64,000 nt of DNA from Lepiota brunneoincarnata (taxonomy: Eukaryota; Basidiomycota; Agaricomycetes; Agaricales; Agaricaceae). The stretch covers positions 186,001 to 250,000 of the forward strand of contig JAEBUN010000038.1 of assembly GCA_023014365.1 (NCBI GenBank). The letters are read 5' to 3'. Each line of letters opens with the position of its first letter. Position 1 is the stretch's first letter. The notes under the pieces are model-generated. The model made no database searches, was not told where the DNA came from, and worked only from the letters and a program-made list of their open reading frames with translations. Positions 34,363 to 63,400 of this stretch are shown in pieces. The position numbers and the translations under genes were made by a program.

Positions 34363-34560
34363 CAGGCAGGGGGTTGGACTTGCAGCCTCAGCTTATGTGC
34401 TGTGCCCTCCTACTGTCCAAGTCTGTATTTCAGGAGATTGGGGCTGAAGCAGAGCGAGGCAGAAGAGAGGAGAGGATATGGAACAGGGAGCTAGTCTGCT
34501 GCTCAATTCAATTATCAGACTGCAGAGTACAAGCCAAGGACCTATGGTATATATACTACT
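34363..34560. other. unassigned flank, left of gypsy-1
   Basis: No coding or repeat signal recognised. It was continuous with 47857-48189 before gypsy-1 inserted at CTACT. GGTATATATACTACT at its end is AT-rich. Confidence 0.5.
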
Positions 34561-34944
34561 TGTTATCAGAATTCCATCAGAAGGACAGTTATTTTTAACT
34601 ACATTCCCATGTCACTATGAAACTATCAGTAGTGTACATCAGAAGGACGATTCTTATCATATGCCTCATGTCTCTTATCTCTGACTCATAGTTACCTTGG
34701 TCTGGACTATTATAGTAGGAGTATAGCCACACTTAGAAGTATATAAGGATACAGTACAATGCCTTGTATCCTTATCTTAGTGTTATACAGTTCTTGCCTC
34801 CTATACCTCTTTGCCCTTAAAACCGGCTGGACTATAGTGCTCCGTCATCTCTAAGTCACGCCTAGTAGGACAAGACCAAGTCTGTATAGACATCTTGCCT
34901 CGAACGCCGTGCTACTCAAGAGCAAACCCCTAACCCAGGTAACA
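34561..34944 (+). repeat. 5' LTR of gypsy-1
   Basis: TGTTATCAG..GGTAACA. Differs from the 3' LTR at five positions, all TpG/CpA here versus CpG in the other copy. Contains the TATA box and putative start described separately. Confidence 0.95.
34740..34784 (+). promoter_or_regulatory. gypsy-1 TATA box and self-primer at predicted RNA 5' end
   Basis: TATATAAG (34740-34747), then 34 nt on, ATCTTAGTGTT (34774-34784). That 11-mer is the exact reverse complement of 34946-34956, just inside the LTR. The distance from TATA fits the expected transcription start, so the first bases of the RNA could fold back and prime minus-strand DNA, as known for Tf1 of fission yeast. Confidence 0.75.
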
Positions 34945-34945
34945 A

Positions 34946-34956
34946 AACACTAAGAT
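34946..34956 (+). other. gypsy-1 primer binding site, self-primed type
   Basis: AACACTAAGAT begins one base after the LTR. It has no TGG start and I see no tRNA 3' end match, but it pairs perfectly with 34774-34784 (12 pairs counting A34957 with T34773). Same geometry as gypsy-3. Confidence 0.75.
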
Positions 34957-36580
34957 ACTCTGCTGCTTATCTCTTGCTTGCCCTCTACTCTGCTCTGCTC
35001 TGCCGACGTACTGAATGCGTCGAGGTACCCTGGTCGTCCAAAATGACGTGCGAAAGAAAACCGCCTCTCTGTGTAGCCATCGCTACATCCCTCAACCTCT
35101 CCCCGCCAGAAGATCTGGCTTACCTACTCATTTTTGTTTTCACCTCTACCACCACCCTCATCACCTATCGAATCATCACCCTAGAACTCGAACGTATCAC
35201 ATGCCCCTGTCACTGTTGTGTCATCAGATCGTGGAACCTATATTCAGGAATATCCATAATCGCCACCCAATTCTTCATACTTCTAGCGATAATCGATCGC
35301 TAGACAAATATCACCATGCCTCCAAAGAAATTCTTGGCCCGAGAATCCCCATCACCCCCTCCTCCTAAATCAAGAAGTAGAATCTCAGGATCAGGAACCC
35401 AGAACCCGGATCCCAGAAGAAACCCTATCCCCACTCAGACACCATCCCCATTCTATCCTCCATCTCCATTCGACTCACCCACTCCAAGTATGTACATCAA
35501 CACGTACAAGAACAAACTTTGCTGACGAACTAGCAGAGCGACAAAGACTACAACATGAAAGAGAATTAAAGGAACACTACGAAGAAGAAGAAAGAAGACG
35601 CAAACAAGCCGAAGAATACCGTGCTAAAGTAGACCCATTAAACGACTACAAACTCCAAAGACTTAAAAACGCCCTCAAACAACCAAGAGGACTTTCCATG
35701 TCAGAAGAGAACTTACTCACACGCCACGAATACGCCGTAAATCAGGGAAGAACTCCCCCAGCAGACAACGACTCCGATGTCTATATAACAGACGACAACC
35801 AATCAGATCCCGATCCACAACCACCCGCATTACCTGCACCAACCGTACCCTTAGCCCTACCAGCTCCACCTTTGCGACCAACGCAACCTCCATCACCACC
35901 ATCGCCACCGCCACCCGGACAATTACAAATAATGGCCACCGCAGCTACCCCAAAGGAGTTAGGACTCCTCAAACCCATCGCCTTCGATGGAACTAGAAGA
36001 CTATTCGAAGATTGGATCTTCCAATGTGAAGTTTACGTGCTCGCCAATGCGACCACTTACAACACCGACCTCGCTAGGACCCTATTTGTCCTTTCGACGA
36101 TGCAATCAGGAGATGCCCGAGCCTGGGCTAGACAATACCTCCATGAGAGAAACACCCAAACTCAACAAGGGCAACCCATAGCCATGGAGTCATGGGACAA
36201 CTTCACCGCTCGACTTAGAGCCGACTTCACCCCAGCAGACGAACATGCATACGCGCATACCTGACTTCAAACCCTGCACCAAGCAGGCAAACCAATGACC
36301 GAATTCAACGCTCAGTTCAAGGAACTTGTCCGACAATCCGGACTAAACGAAGATCGCACTCTAATCGATCTATACTGCAAGGCAATTGATCGCCGCATTG
36401 CCATGAAAATCAACGAATTGGAAAACCCTCCGACAACTATCACCGCTTGGTACACCCAAGCAAATAAACTCGACGACAATTTCCGCCAAATCAACGCCCT
36501 CTACGGCACCCCCAGAAACACGTTTCCCCAAAGAAACCAATACCAACCCAACCGCGGACCAAGCCGTCCAAACAATAACG

Positions 36581-36949
36581 TGTAGAAGCAGGAGCGTTGG
36601 GGGACTGGTAAGGAGTCCTAACAGCGAAGGAACGAGTGTATTACGCGAAGGGAACGACTAGAAACGAAAGGAACAAGCTGTGGACAGCTGTGAGAGACTA
36701 GAGTGGAGATAGAACTAACTACTCACCTGTGGACAGCTGTGAGAGACTGGAAGTCCCAAAAGCATCCACAGGTGCAAGTCCATGTCTAGATCACATGACT
36801 AGCTACCAAAAGTGTCCAGGCCTATCTACAAGTCCACAAACACAACAACAAACAAGTGGGACTGTTCAGAGCACAATAAGACAAGTGCACACTGCTCACC
36901 ACAGGAGTGCATATAGCACATCCTGGCATGTCACAGGGCACTCCTAACA
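36581..36949 (-). repeat. 3' LTR of copia (lower coordinate)
   Basis: 369 bp. Differs from the other LTR at two sites (CATCC versus CGTCC, GTGTCC versus GCGTCC), both CpG transitions. Two imperfect repeats of CTGTGGACAGCTGTGAGAGACT lie inside. Confidence 0.96.
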
Positions 36950-36960
36950 CACCCCCTTGA
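36950..36960 (-). other. copia polypurine tract
   Basis: On the minus strand TCAAGGGGGTG directly precedes the 3' LTR start TGTTAGGAG. Purine tracts in this position prime plus-strand DNA. Confidence 0.8.
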
Positions 36961-36979
36961 TCTGACAAGTCCTACTGCA

Positions 36980-39900
36980 TTAGACATGCCGTCGCAGACC
37001 TAAAAGAGGTACTGTGGACTCCACAATCGACACAGGAACAGGCTTGGTGAGGATGTCAGCCAACTGCACAGTGGTTGGTACATGCACTGGATCAATCATT
37101 CTAGCCTCCACTGCATCACGGAGCCAGTAGAGTCGAAGGTCTAGGTGCTTCATTCGTCCATGGTGTTCTGGATTCTTTGCAACCTGTATTCCTGACTTGT
37201 TGTCAACATAGAGTGTCGAAGGGAAGGAAATGATGTGTCCAATCTCTGAGAGAATGTTGCGCATCCACATGATCTCCTTGCCTGCTTCAACTGCTGCAAC
37301 ATACTCAGCTTCAGTAGTAGACAGTGTTACCAATCCCTGACGCTTTGAGGACCATCCTACAGCGCCACCACACACCAGAGTTACATATCCACCTGTTGCT
37401 CGTCCTGTCTCCTTGCAATCACCATGAGAGGCATCTGAGTAGGTTATAAACAACTCGTCATCATTGTTCCCTCTGTAGACTAGCTTGTAGTCAGCAGTGC
37501 CTTTGAGGTAACGGAAGAGGTGTTTGACAGCTGCCCAGTGCTGGGGGCCAGGATTGTGATTAAACCGCCCCAGATAAGCAACAGCAAATGCAATGTCGGG
37601 ACGAGTCATCGTGGCCAAGTACTGGAGTGCACCCACAGCACTGAGATAGGGAATAGAGCGCATCTGGTCTTGTTCTGCAGGGGAGATTGTGATGTTGGCT
37701 AAGTCAATTCCTGGACTCATAGGAGTCTTCACAGGATTGCAGTCATCCATACCAAACTGTTTGAGCATAGAATCAATATAGTGCGATTGGGAAAGGGAGA
37801 TGGTGCGGTTGGGGATATCCTGAGTGATCTGGATGTTGAGAAGAAAGGAGGTGAGACCAAGATCACGGAGTTTGAAGTGTTTTGACAGCTCAGCTACTGT
37901 TCTGTCCATGGCTTGATTGTTCTTGGACACAAGTGTGATGTCGTCAATGAAGATGGGAACAATAACACAAACGTCACCCTTGCTGTAAACATACACAGAG
38001 TTGTCTGACTTGAGCTTGGTGTAGTCCAAAGAGCTAAAGACGTCATGTAGCTTCTTGTTCCACTGTCTAGCAGCCTGTTTGAGGCCATAGAGTGACTTGG
38101 TGAGCTTGCAAACATGGTTAGGACCTCCCTCGTGGTAGCCTTCAGGTTGGCGCATGTAGATTTCTTCATCCAAGTCCCCATAGGTGAAGGCAGATGAAAT
38201 GTCGACAGAACGAAGTGAATAGCCTTCTTTGGCTGCCAAGGCCAGAATGAGGCGTAGGGATGCAGGGCGATATGTGGGAGCAAAGACTTCAGTATAGTCA
38301 AATCCAGGGCGTTGAGAGTACCCTTTTGCGACCAACCTAGCCTTGTAGCGCTCCACAGAGCCATCAGCCTTGAGCTTGACTCGGAACACCCAACCTGAGT
38401 TGATAGCTGTCTTGCCAGGAGGGAGCTCAACAATTTTCCAAGTGTTGTTACCCATTAAAGACATCATCTCGTCATTGCAAGCACCTCGCCATTGAGTCCC
38501 ATCAGGTGCAGACATTGCAGCCTTGAAGGTACGGAAGCCTGGGTCCTCTGTGTTGCCAGCAAACTCAACATTTTGAAAGCCATCCTCAACAGCTAGATCA
38601 GCTTCCTCCTCATCATCACTGTCAGGGACAGGAGGTGGAGGATCTCTGACCTTCCACCACTCACCAGGTGACCGTCTCACACGTGCAGAGCGTCGTGGAG
38701 CAGTTGGGAGCAATGGTGGTACAGGAGGCGGCGCAACATCAAGAGGAGGCGCAGAAACAGGAGGAATGATAGGAGGTGGAGCAGGGAGTGGTACATCTTG
38801 AGGAGGATGAATAGGAATGGATGGAATGACTGGAGACACCCCCTCATCGTCAAGAGGTGGTACTCCCTTAGAATGTGGAGAGGAGGGTGGTAATGGAGTT
38901 GGTGCAGTGGGTGGAGGAGTAAATCCTGGATTGGAGTTGGAATGTGAGGGAAAGTTAGACGGAGCAGATGGGACAGCCAGTGGACGTGGTGCAGTCATCT
39001 GCACACTAGACAGTCCAGGGAAGTGCCGTTCGTCAAAGTCGGCTCTCTCTGAGATCACAACTTGTTTAGTCACAGGATTGTAAAACCTCCATGCCTTGTA
39101 GCCAATAGGATAGCCAATGAATATACACCGTTGCATGTGTGGTCCAAGTGACGTCCGCTTGTCTCTCTGCACATGAACATACGCAGTGCACCCCCAGACT
39201 CGTAGGTGAGCAACATCAGGCTTACGTTTGTAAAAGGCCTCATAAGGAGTGGTGTTGGGAAGGGGAGCAGTAGGGAGGCGATTCCAGACATGAATCATTG
39301 CAGTAAGGCACTCGCCCCAAAATGAAGGAGGGAGATGGGCTTCAGCAAGCATCGCAGTGATACGCTCACCCATTGTCCGATTAGCGCGTTCAGCCAAACC
39401 ATTCTGTTGGGGCCGGTTGCGTGCAGAGTGTCTCCGCTCAATCCCACAGTCAGTGGTGAATTTGATGAAGGCATTAGACATGTATTCACCCCCTTTATCA
39501 TCCTGAAGTGCACGAATCTTGCGGGAGAGCTGGTTCTCTGCCCAAGACTTGAAAGTACGAAATGCATCAAATGCCTCCGATTTCTTCTTTAGGAAGTAAG
39601 CTGCTCGGAATCGTGTTGAGTCGTCAATGAACGTGATCCAGTACTTGTAACCTCGATTGGTAGGTACAGGGAGTGGTCCATGAAGATCTGAGTGCACAAG
39701 GTCAAGTGGTGCACGTGTATGATTGGTCGAGGGAGGAAATGAGGGAGCATGCATCTTGCCAGCCAAGCAAGGTTCACAAACAGGATCGGGAGGTGTCTGA
39801 GAGGTGAGAGTGAGACCAGTCACCAATTGCTGGGAGATCATCTTCTTCACATCAGCATAGTTCTGGTGGATGAGCCTTCTGTGCCAGAGCGACAAGTCAA

Positions 39901-41236
39901 GAGGGAGAGAGATAGAGGCTGCAGAAGCGAGCTGGGAAGCAATGGTGACTCTCTCAAGCACAGCAGTGTTGTTAGAACGGATCCTAGCACAGAACAGAGT
40001 CTTCCTATCCCTCTGGAAGTCCATAGACGAAGCAGAGATGTGTATATTAAGGCCTTTATGCCTAGTAAGGTAGAGGCAAGACAGGAGATTGCTCTGAAGC
40101 TGAGGAACATGGAGAACTTGTGAAAACTGCACTGCACTCGTCGCTTTTCCCCCTACAACTGGCTGAAACACCACAGAGCCCACCCCAGCTGAGTAAATGA
40201 CTGAATCATCAGCTAACCGGACAGGAATGCGAAGGGGAGCATAGGAATGCATCCAGTGACGATGTGGGGTCATATGAGAAGTAGCCCCTGAGTCTGCAAG
40301 CCAATCAACGTCAGAGGAGAGCTGGGAAGGTGTGGGGGAGGTTATACTCGCGTTTCCAGCGAATTCTGTGGTGCTGAGCGCGTTTTCGGATGCAGGAGAG
40401 GGCAGGGAGTCTTGTGACACGTCCTGGGCCTTGTTGGCACGGTTCCTGGGCCATCTAGAGCGCGATTTTGACGTGTTTTTGCGTGCACCCTTCTGGGCAT
40501 CCAAAAAGGAGTAGCACTTGAGCAGTGTGTGGCCAGGCTTGTCACAAAATTCGCATTTCCCGGATGAAGGAGTGGGTGCAGAGCGTGTTGCCAGTGCCTG
40601 GGAGGAGCCTGCAGTGTCCCCAGCATGTCTACGACGTTGAATATCCTCTGTGACGAAAGCCTGGTGCACAGAAGCCTTGTCAAGTTTGTCCATGAGCAGG
40701 AGGGAAGAGGTGAATGAGGAGAATTCCTCAGCAGGGAGGGCTCTAATGAGAGCCATGGAGGCCAGTTCTTCATCCAGCTGGGCTAGTGTGAATCCAGAGG
40801 GGCGGAGATTCGCGATTTTTCGAGTATTTTCGTCCACCCTGTTCATCAGAGCCTGCAGGGACTCGTCCTCTTGCTTCCTGATGCTGAATAAGTCGTCATA
40901 CGCGTTAAAACGCGTCCCAGCACGCTTTTGGAGGTGTATTTGCTCTAGGGCCTTCCACATCTTCACAGGATCGTCCTGAATTGAGTTGAAATGGATCCTT
41001 TGGTCAGGTTCCACCATTAGAAACAGCCAGCCAGCTGCCTTGTCCGCTTTAGCCTCCCAAGCTTCCTTAGCCTGATATTCTTCTTTGGTGGGGGGAGATG
41101 AGAGTGAGGGACTTAGCATAGAACCAGATACCACTCTCCACAGCCCAGAAGCTCGAAACCACGCCTCCATCTCTCCAGACCATGTGGGGTAGTTGGAAGC
41201 ATTCAATTTGTCGAAATGGGGAGTGCTGGAAGCCAT
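36980..41236 (-). CDS. copia Gag-Pol polyprotein, 1,418 aa, intact
   Basis: One uninterrupted frame starting 70 nt inside the 5' LTR. Domains: gag-like N-terminus (DKLNASNYPTWSGEMEAWF, 1-220), knuckle CEFCDKPGHTLLKC (228-241), protease WLADSGATSHM (Asp315), GAG-pre-integrase with WHRRLIHQNY and CEPCLAG (451-493), and integrase with D517, D580 and E616 (35 residues between the last two, the usual spacing). A Pro-rich linker (750-880) follows, then reverse transcriptase from about 930 (GWVFRVKLKADGSVERYKAR) with FIDD at 1096-1099, and RNase H near 1280-1410 (ITYSDASHGD, LSTTEAEYVA). The order integrase before reverse transcriptase defines Ty1/copia. Gag and Pol in one frame leave their ratio to RNA or protein processing. 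All catalytic residues I can check are present. Confidence 0.96.
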   Translation of the reverse strand: MASSTPHFDKLNASNYPTWSGEMEAWFRASGLWRVVSGSMLSPSLSSPPTKEEYQAKEAWEAKADKAAGWLFLMVEPDQRIHFNSIQDDPVKMWKALEQIHLQKRAGTRFNAYDDLFSIRKQEDESLQALMNRVDENTRKIANLRPSGFTLAQLDEELASMALIRALPAEEFSSFTSSLLLMDKLDKASVHQAFVTEDIQRRRHAGDTAGSSQALATRSAPTPSSGKCEFCDKPGHTLLKCYSFLDAQKGARKNTSKSRSRWPRNRANKAQDVSQDSLPSPASENALSTTEFAGNASITSPTPSQLSSDVDWLADSGATSHMTPHRHWMHSYAPLRIPVRLADDSVIYSAGVGSVVFQPVVGGKATSAVQFSQVLHVPQLQSNLLSCLYLTRHKGLNIHISASSMDFQRDRKTLFCARIRSNNTAVLERVTIASQLASAASISLPLDLSLWHRRLIHQNYADVKKMISQQLVTGLTLTSQTPPDPVCEPCLAGKMHAPSFPPSTNHTRAPLDLVHSDLHGPLPVPTNRGYKYWITFIDDSTRFRAAYFLKKKSEAFDAFRTFKSWAENQLSRKIRALQDDKGGEYMSNAFIKFTTDCGIERRHSARNRPQQNGLAERANRTMGERITAMLAEAHLPPSFWGECLTAMIHVWNRLPTAPLPNTTPYEAFYKRKPDVAHLRVWGCTAYVHVQRDKRTSLGPHMQRCIFIGYPIGYKAWRFYNPVTKQVVISERADFDERHFPGLSSVQMTAPRPLAVPSAPSNFPSHSNSNPGFTPPPTAPTPLPPSSPHSKGVPPLDDEGVSPVIPSIPIHPPQDVPLPAPPPIIPPVSAPPLDVAPPPVPPLLPTAPRRSARVRRSPGEWWKVRDPPPPVPDSDDEEEADLAVEDGFQNVEFAGNTEDPGFRTFKAAMSAPDGTQWRGACNDEMMSLMGNNTWKIVELPPGKTAINSGWVFRVKLKADGSVERYKARLVAKGYSQRPGFDYTEVFAPTYRPASLRLILALAAKEGYSLRSVDISSAFTYGDLDEEIYMRQPEGYHEGGPNHVCKLTKSLYGLKQAARQWNKKLHDVFSSLDYTKLKSDNSVYVYSKGDVCVIVPIFIDDITLVSKNNQAMDRTVAELSKHFKLRDLGLTSFLLNIQITQDIPNRTISLSQSHYIDSMLKQFGMDDCNPVKTPMSPGIDLANITISPAEQDQMRSIPYLSAVGALQYLATMTRPDIAFAVAYLGRFNHNPGPQHWAAVKHLFRYLKGTADYKLVYRGNNDDELFITYSDASHGDCKETGRATGGYVTLVCGGAVGWSSKRQGLVTLSTTEAEYVAAVEAGKEIMWMRNILSEIGHIISFPSTLYVDNKSGIQVAKNPEHHGRMKHLDLRLYWLRDAVEARMIDPVHVPTTVQLADILTKPVPVSIVESTVPLLGLRRHV

Positions 41237-41294
41237 TGGGAGAGGCAGAAATGAGTGAAAGGGTAAAAACGCGTTTTGAAGCTGTTATAGCCCG

Positions 41295-41306
41295 GGGCCC
41301 ATAACC
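41295..41306 (-). other. copia primer binding site (internal initiator-Met tRNA type)
   Basis: On the minus strand GGTTATGGGCCC follows the 5' LTR directly. As I recall it, this is the start of the primer site of Drosophila copia, which uses an internal cut of initiator Met tRNA rather than its 3' end. Confirm against a fungal initiator tRNA. Confidence 0.65.
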
Positions 41307-41675
41307 TGTAGAAGCAGGAGCGTTGGGGGACTGGTAAGGAGTCCTAACAGCGAAGGAACGAGTGTATTACGCGAAGGGAACGACTAGAAACGAAAGGAAC
41401 AAGCTGTGGACAGCTGTGAGAGACTAGAGTGGAGATAGAACTAACTACTCACCTGTGGACAGCTGTGAGAGACTGGAAGTCCCAAAAGCGTCCACAGGTG
41501 CAAGTCCATGTCTAGATCACATGACTAGCTACCAAAAGCGTCCAGGCCTATCTACAAGTCCACAAACACAACAACAAACAAGTGGGACTGTTCAGAGCAC
41601 AATAAGACAAGTGCACACTGCTCACCACAGGAGTGCATATAGCACATCCTGGCATGTCACAGGGCACTCCTAACA
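41307..41675 (-). repeat. 5' LTR of copia (higher coordinate)
   Basis: 369 bp, keeps CpG at both positions where the partner LTR has changed. Followed by the TAACG duplication and the rest of gypsy-1 gag. Confidence 0.96.
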
Positions 41676-42213
41676 TAACGTGCCCTACGCACAATTCTAC
41701 CAAAGGAGCAACGCTCCACGATTTACCCCACGCAACCCACACGCCATGGAAGTAGACCATGTCGCAATAGAAGAAGGATTCGAAGATCCTTATCCTGAAA
41801 TCCCACAACCGGAATATACCGAAGAAAACTCCACACAAGAACCGTTGGAGTTAGATGCCGTTGTCACTGGACAACAAATGAAATCATACCAAAACCAGGA
41901 ATGCTTCCGATGTGGAGCCAAAGATCATTGGGTCAGCAAATGCCCTCAACCACCACCAGCCAGATGCTTCCCAGGAATGCGCACCAATCCCCCTCGCCCT
42001 GCGAGAAACCCCAACCGTCCCTTCCCTGGACAACAAAACACTCGTCCCGGATTTCCAAACCGAAACACCCAACAATCACTGCAACACAAGTACTCCCTTG
42101 CCATCGCAGAAGTTGCATCTCAGATGCGCCAAATGGTCGATGACCTCGATCCAGAGCTCCAACAAGAACTCCACTCCGCGCTAGCCGAGGACCCGGAGAT
42201 GCGTCCATTCCAG

Positions 42214-47467: not shown

Positions 47468-47851
47468 TGTTATCAGAATTCCATCAGAAGGACAGTTATT
47501 TTTAACTACATTCCCATGTCACTATGAAACTATCAGTAGTGTACATCAGAAGGACGATTCTTATCATATGCCTCATGTCTCTTATCTCTGACTCATAGTT
47601 ACCTTGGTCCGGACTATTATAGTAGGAGTATAGCCACACTTAGAAGTATATAAGGATACAGTACAATGCCTTGTATCCTTATCTTAGTGTTATACAGTTC
47701 TTGCCTCCTATACCTCTTTGCCCTTAAAACCGGCTGGACTATAGTGCTCTGTCGTCTCTAAGTCACGCCTAGTAGGACAAGACCAAGTCTGTATAGACAT
47801 CTTGCCTCGAACGCCGTGCTACTCAAGAGCGAACCCCTAACCCGGGTAACA
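47468..47851 (+). repeat. 3' LTR of gypsy-1
   Basis: 384 bp, TGTTATCAG..GGTAACA, CpG kept at the five sites changed in the 5' LTR. A purine-rich stretch GGAAGAAGGAAATTA lies about 40 bp upstream but not adjacent, so the polypurine tract is uncertain. Confidence 0.95.
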
Positions 47852-47856
47852 CTACT

Positions 47857-57480: not shown

Positions 57481-58158
57481 TAATCTTGACAAGGGCATAG
57501 CTTTCCATCTTTCTTTCCTATGAAGAAGAAAGGGGAGGCCATTGGTGATTTGGATGGCCAGATGTATCCTTTTTGAAGGTTTTCTTCTAGGAATGTATCA
57601 AGTTCCTTTTCTTCATTGAGGGATAGTTGGTAAGACTTCATGGTGATTGGCTTGAATGATTCCTTGAGTTTGATTTTGTGATCCCATAGTTGTTGTGGGA
57701 GGAATCATTTGGCTTGTGTCTTGCTGAATACTGGAAGGTATTCATGGAATTCTGCAGGTACGACCTTTCTTGGGTCATTGTTTTTCTTTTCTCCATGTTG
57801 TACAGCAAGGAATTATGATGCTGAGGCTTTGAAGTTGATTTCTTCAAAACTCGTAGGCTTGAGGGTGGAGATGTAGTTGAGTTGATCATTGTAGATCTAG
57901 TTGGGTTCCATAGATTGGATGAGTTCTCAAAAGATAGTGTTATCCCAATGTTCATTTCTCCAGCATAGTTGTTTGGCATCCCAGTCAATGTCTGGGTTGT
58001 GTTCTGTGAGCCAGGGAAATCCAAGGATAAGTCTTGGGCTTCTAAGGGAGACTACTTTCAGTTTGATCTCCATGTGGTTGAGGGTTGTATAATGGGTAGC
58101 TATCCCATTTTCATTAATTGATCCATCAGCATTTTGTACTTTAATGGGTCAATCAAGG

Positions 58159-58510
58159 TGTTACCATTTTCCTTTTAGTCCGCCTGCCCACCTATTTTTA
58201 CTTAAACACATGTCACCACTCGTTGTCAGCGCCCGATTATATTTACTTATCACATGCCGCTGTTCATCTATAGTTAGTTATCTTTGGCCTGTGATTTCCA
58301 CCTGTTCGCATGTGATTTTCTTCTTTATCACATGCCCGTTGTCTCAGTAGTATATATAGACCTAAGTATTACTTGCAATCCTTAGCTTTGTCTTGTTATA
58401 CATCGTATTTGTTCCTGTTCATTGACATCGTCTTTGACTTGCTCGCATTACTCAATGGTTGACTTGTCGTTGACCGCATTGAGCCTTGCAGATGCCTAAC
58501 CAGCGTAACA
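58159..58510 (+). repeat. 5' LTR of gypsy-3
   Basis: 352 bp, TGTTACC..CGTAACA (TGTTAC and GTAACA are inverse). The preceding CAAGG would be the TSD. The 3' LTR is outside the window. Defined by its ends, TATA box, primer site and the gag that follows. Confidence 0.8.
58351..58394 (+). promoter_or_regulatory. gypsy-3 TATA box and self-primer
   Basis: TATATATA (58351-58358) and, 33 nt from its start, AGCTTTGTCTT (58384-58394), the exact reverse complement of 58512-58522. Same layout as gypsy-1 with a different sequence. Confidence 0.78.
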
Positions 58511-58511
58511 A

Positions 58512-58522
58512 AAGACAAAGCT
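58512..58522 (+). other. gypsy-3 primer binding site, self-primed type
   Basis: AAGACAAAGCT, starting one base after the LTR, pairs perfectly with 58384-58394. No tRNA-type TGG start. Confidence 0.78.
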
Positions 58523-58787
58523 ACTCGTTGCCTCTCTTCTCTTCTTGCCCTCCTTGGTTCGCACAGTACCGTTAACTGTGAGGTCTAGACAGAACCGTAA
58601 TCTGTTGAGGATCATCGCTTGTCTATTCAAGCATCTGACACAGTCCTCACCCTGAAGAACTCCAGCTGTTGTTCTTCTGAACCTTCGCACCCCAGCATCA
58701 CTATAGGTTCTCGGATTCCTCATTCGTCTTGTCGAACGTCTTAGTGGATCTTAGATTCTCGGAGGTTTCTCTTTACCGGAAAAGACA

Positions 58788-60425
58788 TTGTTGCCCATCA
58801 TGGGTAGTTATTTCAAGTCCAGGACTGACCATCCTAATCCTCGCATTTCCCAAACTGGTTCTGGATCTCCAGGACCCTCTCAACCGTCTGTTACCCCACA
58901 TGCCATTCCATCTACTCCTCACCCTACTCCTTCTTTTCACGTGCCTTTGTCTTCTCCTGAGTCCGACCAACCCGTATATGCAACCCCGCCTGAACCAGTG
59001 GATACCACCCTTCAGGTAGCCACCCAGATTACCGAACCATCACCCATCGAACCACCCCGACTCCCTTTTGGTCTACTGGAAGCAACCACAAGTACAGGAA
59101 GTCCCTTATGCTTTCCTATCCATCAGATTGAACCCGGACAGTACCAACTTCCCTGCAACCTACAACCCTTCCCACCACCTTCCCCTCCCTCTGAACCTAT
59201 GTCTGAAACTATGGGAGACCCACCGGCTAACCAGCCACCGCCAGGACCACCAGGACCACCTGGAGGACCACCAGGACCGCCCGGACCACCACCACAAGGT
59301 CCACCCCGTCCACCGTCACCACAACCGCAACACAATGGCTACAAAGAACTATCGTTCAAGAAACTGACACCGTTTGACGGCAACCGCAAGAACTTCCAAG
59401 AGTTCATTAACTCCGTAGCACTCTACCTTTATGGAAACGCAGATATCTACAACACCGACGACAAGAAGATCGTATTCTTCTTATCCCTGCTTAAATCTGG
59501 CGAAGCCAGCAACTGGAAGAACCAATACTTTCAGTCAAAACAAGTATGGGGAGAGTTCACCCCCGGAACTTACGACAAACTCATTGAAGAGTTCACCAAA
59601 GCATTCTCGCCCGTCGACGTCCCATCCCAAGCATTCCATGACCTCAACACCCTTTGCCAAGGATCTTGAAACGTCGAAGACGTCATCGCAGAATTTAAAA
59701 CCCTCGTCCATCGTTCAGGACTCCGTGAAGACTGCGCCCTCATAGAAAAGTTCCAAAACGTCATCAATCGGAACCTCGCTTACAAAATCCTCACTGATCC
59801 AAACCTGCCTAACACCATAAATGAATGGTACCGCCACGCTATCCAGATTGACCATAACTGGCGCACCACCTCCACAATCCTCGGACCCCATCCAGGAGTC
59901 CGTCCACGTCCCGCTCCCATCAATAACTACCGCCATACGCAACAACCGTATTGAAAACCGCAACAGCAGTCGTCCTACACAGGACCAAACCATCATTATC
60001 AATTTCACCCATTGCATGATCCGAACGCTATGGAGATCGACAACACATACCTTACTGAAGGTCCCAAATATTACCCTTCTTTTAATATCCCTGGTGATCT
60101 GCACCCCGATCATGAAGAAGCCGAAGAAGACCAACCAGATCATTTCCTTCACAATGATGACATCGATATCAACACCGTCTTTACACCCGAGGAAAAACGT
60201 GCCTACGAGAAAGGCTTATGTTTCTGTTGTTTCAAACCCGGTCACATTTCCCGTATCTGTCCCAACGTCGCCTGACCGCAACTGAAGGTCGATAAAGCAA
60301 CTAACATATGAAATGCGTCTCTTAAAATCTGTTCCATCATCGAATCCATTCCCGAAACTGAAGCCGTTGAAGTCTACGAGACTTGGTCCAAAGACCTGAC
60401 CATGCAACCGTTTGCAAATTTTTGA
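58788..60425 (+). pseudogene. gypsy-3 gag
   Basis: The open frame from about 58788 (ATG 58799 in another frame is a shadow) has a Pro-rich start and a collagen-like Pro-Pro-Gly block near 59240-59310, then the capsid core: KELSFKKLTPFDGNRKNFQE, VFFLSLLKSGEASNWKNQYF. TGA 59667 breaks it. Further frames cover DVIAEFKTLVHRSGL and the knuckle CFCCFKPGHISRIC (near 60216-60258), followed by TGA 60273 and TGA about 60309, then ETWSKDLTMQPFANF and TGA 60423. The final stop after a T5 run mirrors gypsy-1. The true start codon is uncertain. Confidence 0.75.
60416..60422 (+). promoter_or_regulatory. putative -1 frameshift site A-AAT-TTT
   Basis: In the gag frame the codons are GCA AAT TTT TGA, so A AAT TTT fits the X XXY YYZ slippery pattern immediately before the stop. 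The pol frame lies at -1. Gypsy-1 has G GAT TTT TAA at the same place (42213-42222). Confidence 0.55.
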
Positions 60426-63400
60426 TTCAGAGGTTCTGTTCAACGCCAGCCCCTCCCAGTTCCCCTCTCTCTTGTAACGTTGTAACTCTCGCATCTACAT
60501 CAAACAATAAATCCATATATCTTCCTTTAAAGGTGCAGAGCCTGAGAGAACAAAAAGATGTCCTGCTTATCGCCCTCCTTGACTCTGGAGCCCAAGGAAA
60601 TTTCATATCAGACGACTTCGTCACCAAGCACCGTTTATGGAAACAAGAGCTTCCCCGAGCAATCAGTATGCACAATTTCAATGGATCAAACAATTTGAAT
60701 GGAATGATTACCCACTATTCTACCTTCTGCACAATAATCGATGGTCAATTAACTCCCATCACCGCCTATGTCGCGGCAACAGGATCGAAACCAATGGTTC
60801 TTGGTTTCCTGTAGCTTAATGAAGTCAACCCAAAAATCGATTGGAAACGCCATACGTTCCAATGGAGAAAAGAGAAGAAGCACAACCACCACCCTGAGTA
60901 CTTAACGTACAACAACCGTCCGATCGATATCACTACCCTCGCCATGGACCAACTAAACGCGTTCGACCCCGAAGGAAAGTTCTCCTACACCCCGCACAAA
61001 CCGATCCATGAACCTCTCCTCGATGAGGACTATGAAGAGTTCTCTCTAGAGTCTGAGATGCGTCAGATCATTAGTACGCCCGTTGAACTTGCTTATGTTG
61101 AGTTCGAGATCAACCAAATTAGTCAGGCTACAGAACTTGCAATTAAACACGGAGACAAAAAGATCGACAACCCCGCCGTTAAAGTTCCCCGCCGATTCCA
61201 CCGATGGTTGAGTCGTTTCAGCAAGAAAGCTGCCGAACGATTCCCTCCCCGACGATCTTACGACCACGCAATCAAATTAAAGCCCGAATTCAAACCCGTT
61301 GCCATGAAAGCTTACAAACTTTCCCCGAATCAGGACAACTCTTTGAAAGAGTTCATATCCGAAAACCTCTGTAAAGGATACATCCGCCTGTCAAAATCCC
61401 CAATGGCCTCCCCATTCTTCTTTGTCGATAAGAAGGATGGCTCTCTCTGCCCCTGTCAAGATTACCGCTACATCAACAAACATACAGTCAAAAACATGTA
61501 CCACATCCTGATGGTTACCGAGATTATGGATAAGCTCAAAGGAGCCCGCATATTTTCCAAACTCGACATTCGTGCTGGATACAACAACATTCGTATCAAG
61601 AAAGGAGACGAATGGAAAGGAGCGTTCAACACCCCGCTTGGACTATTCGAACCAACTGTCATGTTCTTTGGGATGTGCAACTCCCCCACAACTTTTCAAG
61701 CATTTATGGATGACATCCTGACGTCCCCAATCCGTAAAGGAGGAGTTGTCGTATATATGGACAATATCCTCATCTTCGCTTGTACCCAAGAGGAACACAA
61801 CCGTATTATGGAAGAAGTTCTTGAGTGTTTGGCCTTGAACGACATCTATCTCAAAACCAAGAAATGCGAATTCTACTGCAATCGTATGGAATACCTCGGT
61901 ATGATCATCACGCCCGATAAAATCGAAATGGACCCTGTCAAACTAGCCGGAATCGCCCAATGGCCCATGCCAAAATGTACCAAAGACCTCCGTAAATTTA
62001 TAGGATTCTGCAACTTCTACCAGAAGTTTATTCACGGTTATTCCGCTATTGCCTGACCCCTTAACGCTCTCATGTTGACCAAACGACTATTTGAATGGAC
62101 CGACGAATGTCGAGACTCATTTGATGCTTTGAAACTTCAATTTTCAAAGCAACCCGTGCTTACAATGCCCGACCAATCAAAACCGTTCGAAATCGAATGT
62201 GACACTTTGAAATACGCTACCGGAGCCATACTTTATCAAACCAACATTAATAATCAACGCCACCCCGTAGCTTTCCTATCGAAAACCCTTACACCCGCTG
62301 AGCGAAACTATGATATTCACGACCGCAAATTACTTGCCATAATTCACGCCCTAGGAGAATGGCATCATTATCTAGAAGGAGGACCATTCCCCACTAAAGT
62401 TTGTACTGATCATCAGAACCTTACTTACTGGAAGAAACCGCAGGACATAAACCGACGCCAGGCCCGATGGCATCAACTCCTCTCTCGTTTTAATCTCCAA
62501 ATCAAACATGTCCCTGGTACGAAAATACCCGCTGCTGACACTCTTTCCAGACGTCCCAATCATATTCCCGATGAAGATGAGGATAACAAATCTGTAACCG
62601 TGTTACCCGAATCCGTATTTGTCAACACCGTCGACCAAGAAACCCGTGATGATATCCTCCGCCATAACACCTACAACCCACATACCACCAAACAAATTAC
62701 TGCCCTCTTGACTGCTCCTTACACCCCAATAGATTCCCGGTATTCCGTGACACGAACCCTGAATGGTCTAATCATTACCTACGATGGCAGAACCGTACCC
62801 CCGGAAGACCTTGAACTCCGCCAACGTATTATATGGAAATATCATAATTCTCCCACCACAGGACACCCTGGTATCAACACAACCCTTCACACATTGGAGC
62901 GTGATTTCTATTGGCCTGGTATGGCCAGTTTCACACGTGATTATGTCAAGGGATGCGCTGACTGTCAACAGTTTAAAATTAACTACCACCCTGCCAAGCC
63001 TGCCTTTACCCCTATCCCTGCACCTGAGTCAAACTGCCCATTTGCCCAGATTGCGATGGATCTCATCACCGACCTCCCTCCCTCCGCAGGTTTTGACTCG
63101 ATTCTGTCCATTGTGGACCATGGACTCTCGAAGGGGGTAATTCTCACCCCTACCAACAAATCTGCGACCGCCAATGACATAGCCAACATCATTCTCAACA
63201 AGGTTTACCCACGTTATGGCCTACCTGAACGTATCATATCCGACCATGACCCACGTTTTACTGCACAATCATTCCAGAAACTGTTGGAACAACTTGAAAT
63301 AACTCCAGCAATGACCACAGCCTACCATCCTGAAGCAGACAGAGCAACCAAACACTCACACTAGGAAACTTAGGCGTATCTCTCCATATTTTGTTCACAC

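Follow-up and report, generated by a model that had tools for sequence, protein, structure and literature searches.

What does it mean that gypsy-3, a Ty3/gypsy retrotransposon, carries within its 5' long terminal repeat (LTR) a short sequence whose exact complement lies directly past the LTR end, and could such a pair prime reverse transcription? The element begins near the end of the window analysed here, a 64,000-nt stretch (C34:186001-250000) from a basidiomycete-like genome of 55.6 Mb in 95 contigs, and its 3' part extends beyond that window. Judging from sequence, we consider it highly probable (roughly 0.93) that the pair represents the self-primer and the primer-binding site (PBS) of a Tf1-type self-priming Ty3/gypsy chromovirus. 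This layout describes the gypsy-3 family, since the reading frames of the copy in the window are broken. The features on which the argument turns are the following.

58154-58158, + strand: probable 5-bp target-site duplication CAAGG; the copy past the 3' LTR, beyond the window, reads CGAGG (4/5 match)
58159-58510, + strand: 5' LTR of gypsy-3, 352 bp, TGTTACC...CGTAACA; other copies stop at the same end
58351-58358, + strand: TATA box TATATATA, with a single difference over 28 copies (8 sites each)
58383-58394, + strand: putative self-primer and predicted start of the repeat region (R), a 12-nt helix arm, shortened to 11 nt should A58384 be the RNA start
58511, + strand: gap base A between the LTR end and the 12-nt PBS
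58512-58523, + strand: predicted PBS AAGACAAAGCTA

The original prediction was correct in that AGCTTTGTCTT (58384-58394) and AAGACAAAGCT (58512-58522) are exactly complementary, and in that gypsy-1, a second element of the window, differs from gypsy-3 in this sequence while retaining pairing and layout. Several particulars have to be adjusted. The 11-mers are real, but the helix is actually 12 bp long, with 58383-58394 (TAGCTTTGTCTT) pairing with 58512-58523, and it is likewise 12 bp in gypsy-1 (34773-34784 with 34946-34957). The distance of 33 nt given from the TATA box is reproduced if counted from the first base of the box. The spacing said to be kept between the two elements is indeed similar from the TATA box to the first paired base (32 nt in gypsy-3 and 33 nt in gypsy-1), but the arm-to-arm distance is 117 nt in gypsy-3 versus 161 nt in gypsy-1. 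Likewise, a one-base gap is present in both elements, whereas the gap is two bases in three other families and in L090, a contig from elsewhere that is described below. The LTR ends of gypsy-1 are fixed by its 5-bp duplication CTACT, and its relevant parts are these.

34556-34560 and 47852-47856: target-site duplication CTACT
34561-34944, + strand: 5' LTR of gypsy-1, 384 bp
34740-34746, + strand: TATA box TATATAA
34773-34784, + strand: putative self-primer TATCTTAGTGTT
34946-34957, + strand: predicted PBS AACACTAAGATA, one base past the LTR
47468-47851, + strand: 3' LTR, with 5 differences from the 5' LTR

The same layout occurs in five Ty3/gypsy families of this genome, namely F1 (gypsy-1), F3 (gypsy-3), FA, FB and FC. 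In this order, the helix measures 12, 12, 11, 10 and 12 bp and its first base lies 33, 32, 34, 34 and 35 nt from the TATA box, while the PBS is offset from the LTR by 1 nt in F1 and F3 and by 2 nt in FA, FB and FC. If the RNA starts at the first A, which is common to all five (ATC.., AGC.., AGT.., ATC.. and AAG..), the distance from TATA becomes 33-35 nt. Together with L090, six elements thus possess six different, perfectly pairing 10-12-nt sequences, with one arm 32-35 nt past TATA and the other 1-2 nt past the LTR. Crossing the primers and PBSs of the five families gives runs of just 3-6 nt versus 10-12 nt with the own partner, and a PBS compared with the whole LTR of another family finds 4-7 nt. 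The covariation from which the original prediction had argued for self-priming is therefore present, and together with the absence of pairing of at least 10 nt at other offsets it supports the mechanism. Its extent in relatives, which here comprise one genome and one contig from elsewhere, is limited to differences between families; none was found within families (76 further copies), because there the pair is nearly fixed.

The degree of this fixation is informative in F3. The pair is the same as the reference in 26/28 F3, 29/29 F1, 13/13 FA, 2/2 FB and 4/4 FC copies, that is in 74/76 overall (of the matches listed, 28/40 in F3 and 29/41 in F1 are covered), and the two deviating F3 copies carry a one-sided change, one of which leaves a G-U pair. 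Although the average divergence of the F3 copies is 12.9% of sites, only 1 difference is recorded over 28 copies in each of the two 12-nt windows, primer and PBS, as opposed to a median of 38 per window. Only 11/471 windows have at most one difference, and 10 of these are the primer window and the stretch covering the LTR end and PBS.

To compare the pair with other positions, one copy per family was taken and the sequence at each offset of 0-399 past the LTR was searched for complementarity to that LTR. From offset 6 to 399, complementary runs in the five families reach 9 nt at most, so that 0/1,970 offsets reach 10 nt versus 10-12 nt at offset 1-2 in 5/5 families; the corresponding counts are 0/394 for gypsy-3 alone, 0/394 for L090 and 0/2,364 for the five families and L090 together. 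The motif AGCTTTGTCTT/AAGACAAAGCT does not recur exactly elsewhere in the window, whichever strand is read; in shuffled sequence it occurs 0.04 times on average, and two matches occur in 0/100 of them. We estimate the probability that a given 11-mer meets its complement somewhere in a 352-bp LTR at about 8e-5. When a TATA box, an 11-mer pair and CA were demanded jointly, random sequence (297 kb, five draws, two strands each) yielded 4 matches in total, and the real 297 kb, in which some loci overlap, returned 35 instances of each F3 row, 32 of each F1 row and one each of the FA and FC pairs.

How widely the layout is distributed was assessed in the 3 kb upstream of 20 reverse transcriptase (RVT_1) matches of varied frame length, taken from 150 listed. 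All 20 flanks (13 FA, 3 FB and 4 FC) carry, in sense orientation and accompanied by TATA and CA, a pair of at least 10 nt, and 17 of them one of at least 11 nt, the FB pair being 10 nt; a 21st flank (L088), picked via a gag match, is another gypsy-1 copy with the pair. In the antisense direction the full combination appears once among the rows listed (L087), from a gypsy-1 LTR in opposite orientation, and some flanks hold longer inverted pairs devoid of TATA, such as one of 17 nt in L069. Since the sample was drawn from the best-scoring matches, families with other modes of priming may exist outside it. The LTR ends to which these offsets refer are independently backed, in F1 by the duplication and in the other four families by copies that stop there. 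In FA, 6/40 matches end at query base 661, 3 at 662-663 and 2 at 670-673, and 29 continue to 687; the single partial match in FB ends exactly at the LTR end (1/1), as do 3/5 partial matches in FC, the other two ending 1 and 4 bases further. One FA copy has two LTRs that are 100% identical.

The most conventional alternative is that a tRNA primes reverse transcription and that the LTR complementarity is coincidental or has some other role. tRNA priming is indeed usual in Ty3/gypsy and copia elements, and the window offers a putative example that doubles as an internal negative control.

36581-41675, - strand: Ty1/copia element nested in gypsy-1, LTRs 41307-41675 and 36581-36949

This element is flanked by the duplication CGTTA (41676-41680 and 36576-36580), has a single 1418-aa frame and near-identical LTRs (99%), and shows, directly past its LTR, GGTTATGGGCCC, which we take to be the complement of a half tRNA-Met. 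Its PBS region finds no complement longer than 4 nt in its LTR (offsets 0-5), as opposed to the self-complementary families. In contrast to what a tRNA 3' end requires, the first bases past the LTR contain no TGG in any of the five families or L090, a comparison confined to that 3' end. No tRNA was found in the window. As tRNA priming also leaves the fixed position and the covariation between families unexplained, we regard it as very improbable here.

Self-priming, in contrast, would account for both arms. RNA polymerase II would start about 33 nt past the TATA box, so that the RNA would open with the 11-12 nt of the primer; these 5' nucleotides would fold back onto the PBS directly past the LTR end; the RNase H of the element would cleave the RNA after about nucleotide 11; and the freed 3' end would prime minus-strand DNA synthesis through the unique 5' region (U5) and R, replacing the tRNA primer. 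Position, complementarity, conservation of the complementarity and covariation between families are observed in the sequence, and by analogy with Tf1 we infer where the RNA starts, that it anneals in particles and that cleavage and priming follow.

Folding of the leader RNA bears on this scheme as well as on a second alternative, in which the paired segments form an RNA structure serving packaging, dimerisation or translation control. Unconstrained folding places the primer on the PBS in 5/5 families, with probabilities near 1 over the helix core and down to 0.24 at the end pairs, and the predicted helix counts in favour of either reading. A role in packaging, dimerisation or translation control, however, provides no account of why one arm lies 32-35 nt past TATA and the other 1-2 nt past the LTR, exactly where minus-strand synthesis must start, and we consider such a role about as unlikely as tRNA priming. 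Chance complementarity, to which the 39 overlapping 11-nt inverted pairs at 20-900 nt in the window and eight further pair rows with TATA and CA in the 297 kb might be thought to lend weight, is next to negligible against the offset counts given above for the five families and L090, the 20/20 positive flanks and the 74/76 identical copies.

Returning to self-priming, the folds can also be compared with the "pretzel" of three duplexes known from Tf1. The top-ranking F3 and FC structures additionally pair the nucleotides following the primer (GTTA and TGTTA) with TAACA at the end of the LTR, with a bulge of 2 nt in between, and this duplex upstream of the PBS resembles one of the two extra duplexes of Tf1. 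In F3 it competes with the 12th primer pair (the one with probability 0.24), and an 11-nt primer combined with a 2-nt gap is therefore favoured. As for a third duplex, a stretch of FA directly past the PBS pairs with the LTR over 13 nt in L071 only (1/13 copies; about 100 nt after the primer and 4 nt after the PBS), the remaining 12 copies having unbroken runs of 6-7 nt; 0/100 control windows match this 13-nt candidate. The folding z-scores of F3 (-2.35) and FC (-2.25) are the lowest obtained.

A number of observations weigh against self-priming as formulated above. First, the pretzel is only partly found: a duplex downstream of the PBS is no better than in shuffles for F1, F3, FB and FC (as-good fractions 0.68, 0.69, 0.36 and 0.95), is only suggestive in FA (0.06), and the longest downstream Watson-Crick run amounts to 3-6 nt in F1, F3, FB, FC and L090. 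The folding z-scores of F1 (-0.29), FA (-0.5) and FB (-1.31) are unremarkable, and the FB primer pairs over just 10 nt. Second, gypsy-3 and gypsy-1 can also be read as having an 11-nt PBS after a 2-nt gap, such that the DNA leaves both the primer length (11 or 12 nt) and the size of the gap (1 or 2 nt) ambiguous in these two elements, and the start site on which the primer depends is itself borrowed from Tf1. Third, compensatory double changes within families number 0/76 copies; the invariance of the F1 12-mers is weak evidence, because 74/489 F1 windows are unchanged over 29 copies; and the families are related elements, hence not fully independent trials.

How do these elements compare with those already known to prime themselves? 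Self-priming has been demonstrated for Tf1/Tf2 of Schizosaccharomyces pombe (Levin 1995-1998, as cited in PMC7175516, PMC10085805), with which gypsy-3 shares a Ty3/gypsy pol with a chromodomain. Unlike in Tf1/Tf2, each family here has its own primer and PBS sequences, paired over 10-12 bp (12 bp in both gypsy-1 and gypsy-3), no third pretzel duplex was found save the FA candidate, and our case is built from sequence whereas priming has been demonstrated there. Self-priming is described as a common feature of Tf1/sushi chromoviruses in a study treating seven fission-yeast elements (PMC10085805), and the chromoviruses Tj1, Tosmo1-3 and Tcry1 of other fission yeasts have self-primers that match their PBSs and are all reported to be able to form the full pretzel (PMC4600332, PMC10085805); the hosts differ from ours, and a comparison between elements has already been published for them. 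Tcn1 of Cryptococcus neoformans, for which self-priming was proposed, with possibly novel priming in Tcn2-5 (PMC7175516), is a basidiomycete Ty3/gypsy element likened to ours by description rather than by sequence comparison. For Tcn1-clade elements of non-seed plants, self-priming was predicted for most using a threshold akin to ours (10 bp or more, within 0-5 bp of the LTR; PMC6317226), and SM-Tcn1 of Selaginella is described as lacking both a tRNA PBS and a self-primer (PMC2864245).

We would assign the Tf1 type from layout and chromodomain, rather than from a tree placing reverse transcriptase and integrase with Tf1, sushi and Tcn1. In a literature search made without the host name, we recognised no paper treating these very families, and we make no claim of absence. 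Since self-priming is already known, the present finding confirms the mechanism in new elements. What is added are five co-occurring families with different pairs, variation of the helix between 10 and 12 bp and of the gap between LTR and PBS from 1 to 2 nt, and, in FC and L090, a PBS-like piece located upstream of the primer. Collectively, several Ty3/gypsy families of one basidiomycete-like genome appear to be self-primed, each with its own primer-PBS pair, and they constitute a clean, naturally occurring case of covariation for a mechanism elucidated in fission yeast.

Beyond this genome, a scan of viral contigs yielded 90 stretches that fit a pattern and 0 relatives, and a scan of genome contigs yielded three loci, L089, L090 and L091. 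All three are Ty3/gypsy elements on contigs filed under bacterial metagenome-assembled genomes (MAGs; Trichormus, Erythrobacter), probably reflecting eukaryotic contamination of the bins. L090 is a 5.2-kb contig under a cyanobacterial MAG, with identical 55-nt ends and a Ty3/gypsy relative at 33% identity, and we take it to be a stray eukaryotic contig. It carries AAGGCGAACAA 32 nt past TATAAA and TTGTTCGCCTT two bases past GTGACA, an 11-bp helix, its LTR end being set by the motif instead of by a second LTR. In L089, a 10-mer scan gave one pair lacking a TATA box and a 9-mer scan requiring TATA gave none, and in L091 the portion examined gave only runs of N, the presence of a 5' LTR having been checked in neither.

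The PBS-like piece deserves separate mention. In FC (L077:1525-1571) and L090 (49-94), a 9-10-nt piece of the PBS stands right upstream of the primer, in the unique 3' region (U3), so that piece and primer are the two arms of a short palindrome around the presumed start of the RNA. It is present in 5/5 FC copies examined and in L090, and absent from one copy each of F1, F3, FA and FB; the null for this palindrome was drawn from the same locus with the true sites included, its 1-2% being an upper bound. Conceivably, though in our view doubtfully, the palindrome is the trace of a one-step origin of a new primer-PBS pair, in which the PBS end of strong-stop DNA snaps back on the primer and one is copied near the other. 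If true, such an origin would explain how primer and PBS change jointly, which is hard for single mutations; one-sided changes are rare (2/76 copies).

The remainder of gypsy-3 has the following parts.

58788-59669, + strand: gag open reading frame (ORF) piece; DUF4939 marginally above the cut-off, Ty3_capsid under it
60944-62056, + strand: reverse transcriptase ORF piece (RVT_1)
62072-63364, + strand: RNase H and integrase ORF piece; the chromodomain comes next, beyond the window (L002:13-294)

The chromodomain, searched for in gypsy-3 only and not in gypsy-1, is a PF00385 match (E 9.2e-9) to residues 4-31 of the 94-residue frame L002:13-294, past an in-frame stop. The domain order is gag, reverse transcriptase, RNase H, integrase and chromodomain, followed by a purine-rich stretch ahead of the 3' LTR, which lies at C34:251447-251798 (L002:1501-1852) with the same length of 352 bp and the same ends. 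Features of Ty3/gypsy elements (Metaviridae) are present in the order reverse transcriptase-RNase H-integrase, the TG...CA LTRs and the 5-bp duplication (4/5 in gypsy-3, 5/5 in gypsy-1). The best named PDB relative is Ty3-G Gag-Pol (7q5b), and the top chain is 4ol8, Ty3 reverse transcriptase. The RNase H and integrase piece has 934 relatives, and in the top 120 those named by organism come from Moniliophthora, Trametes and Rhodofomes, all Agaricomycetes, and one is labelled Tf2-12 polyprotein, Trametes pubescens. Between chromodomain and 3' LTR, L002:294-1412 holds an extra 3' ORF, a 372-aa open frame with two zinc-knuckle-like motifs whose zf-CCHC score is slightly under the cut-off. With respect to in-frame stops, 44/49 reverse transcriptase matches of the gypsy-3 family (at least 76% identity) contain them, mostly TGA, and 60/61 matches of 62-64% identity (the 1222-aa frame type, FC) lack them across the matched region.

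The two gypsy-3 LTRs (58159-58510 and L002:1501-1852) are identical at 338/352 positions, and all 14 differences are transitions. Seven of the 14 fall at a CpG in one copy, and six more form three CA/TG doublets, which is what two separate CpG changes would give, so that 13/14 may be read as CpG changes; the pattern looks like methyl-CpG or repeat-induced point mutation (RIP)-like decay. That the primer and PBS windows diverge little merely for want of CpG was considered: the 42 windows free of CG, TG and CA have a minimum of 2 differences versus 1 in primer and PBS, and CpG therefore does not explain all of the conservation of the 12-mers, the margin being small. Elsewhere in the window, positions 1-34000 contain many direct and inverted repeats of 200-900 nt, at about 60-95% identity and in several copies.
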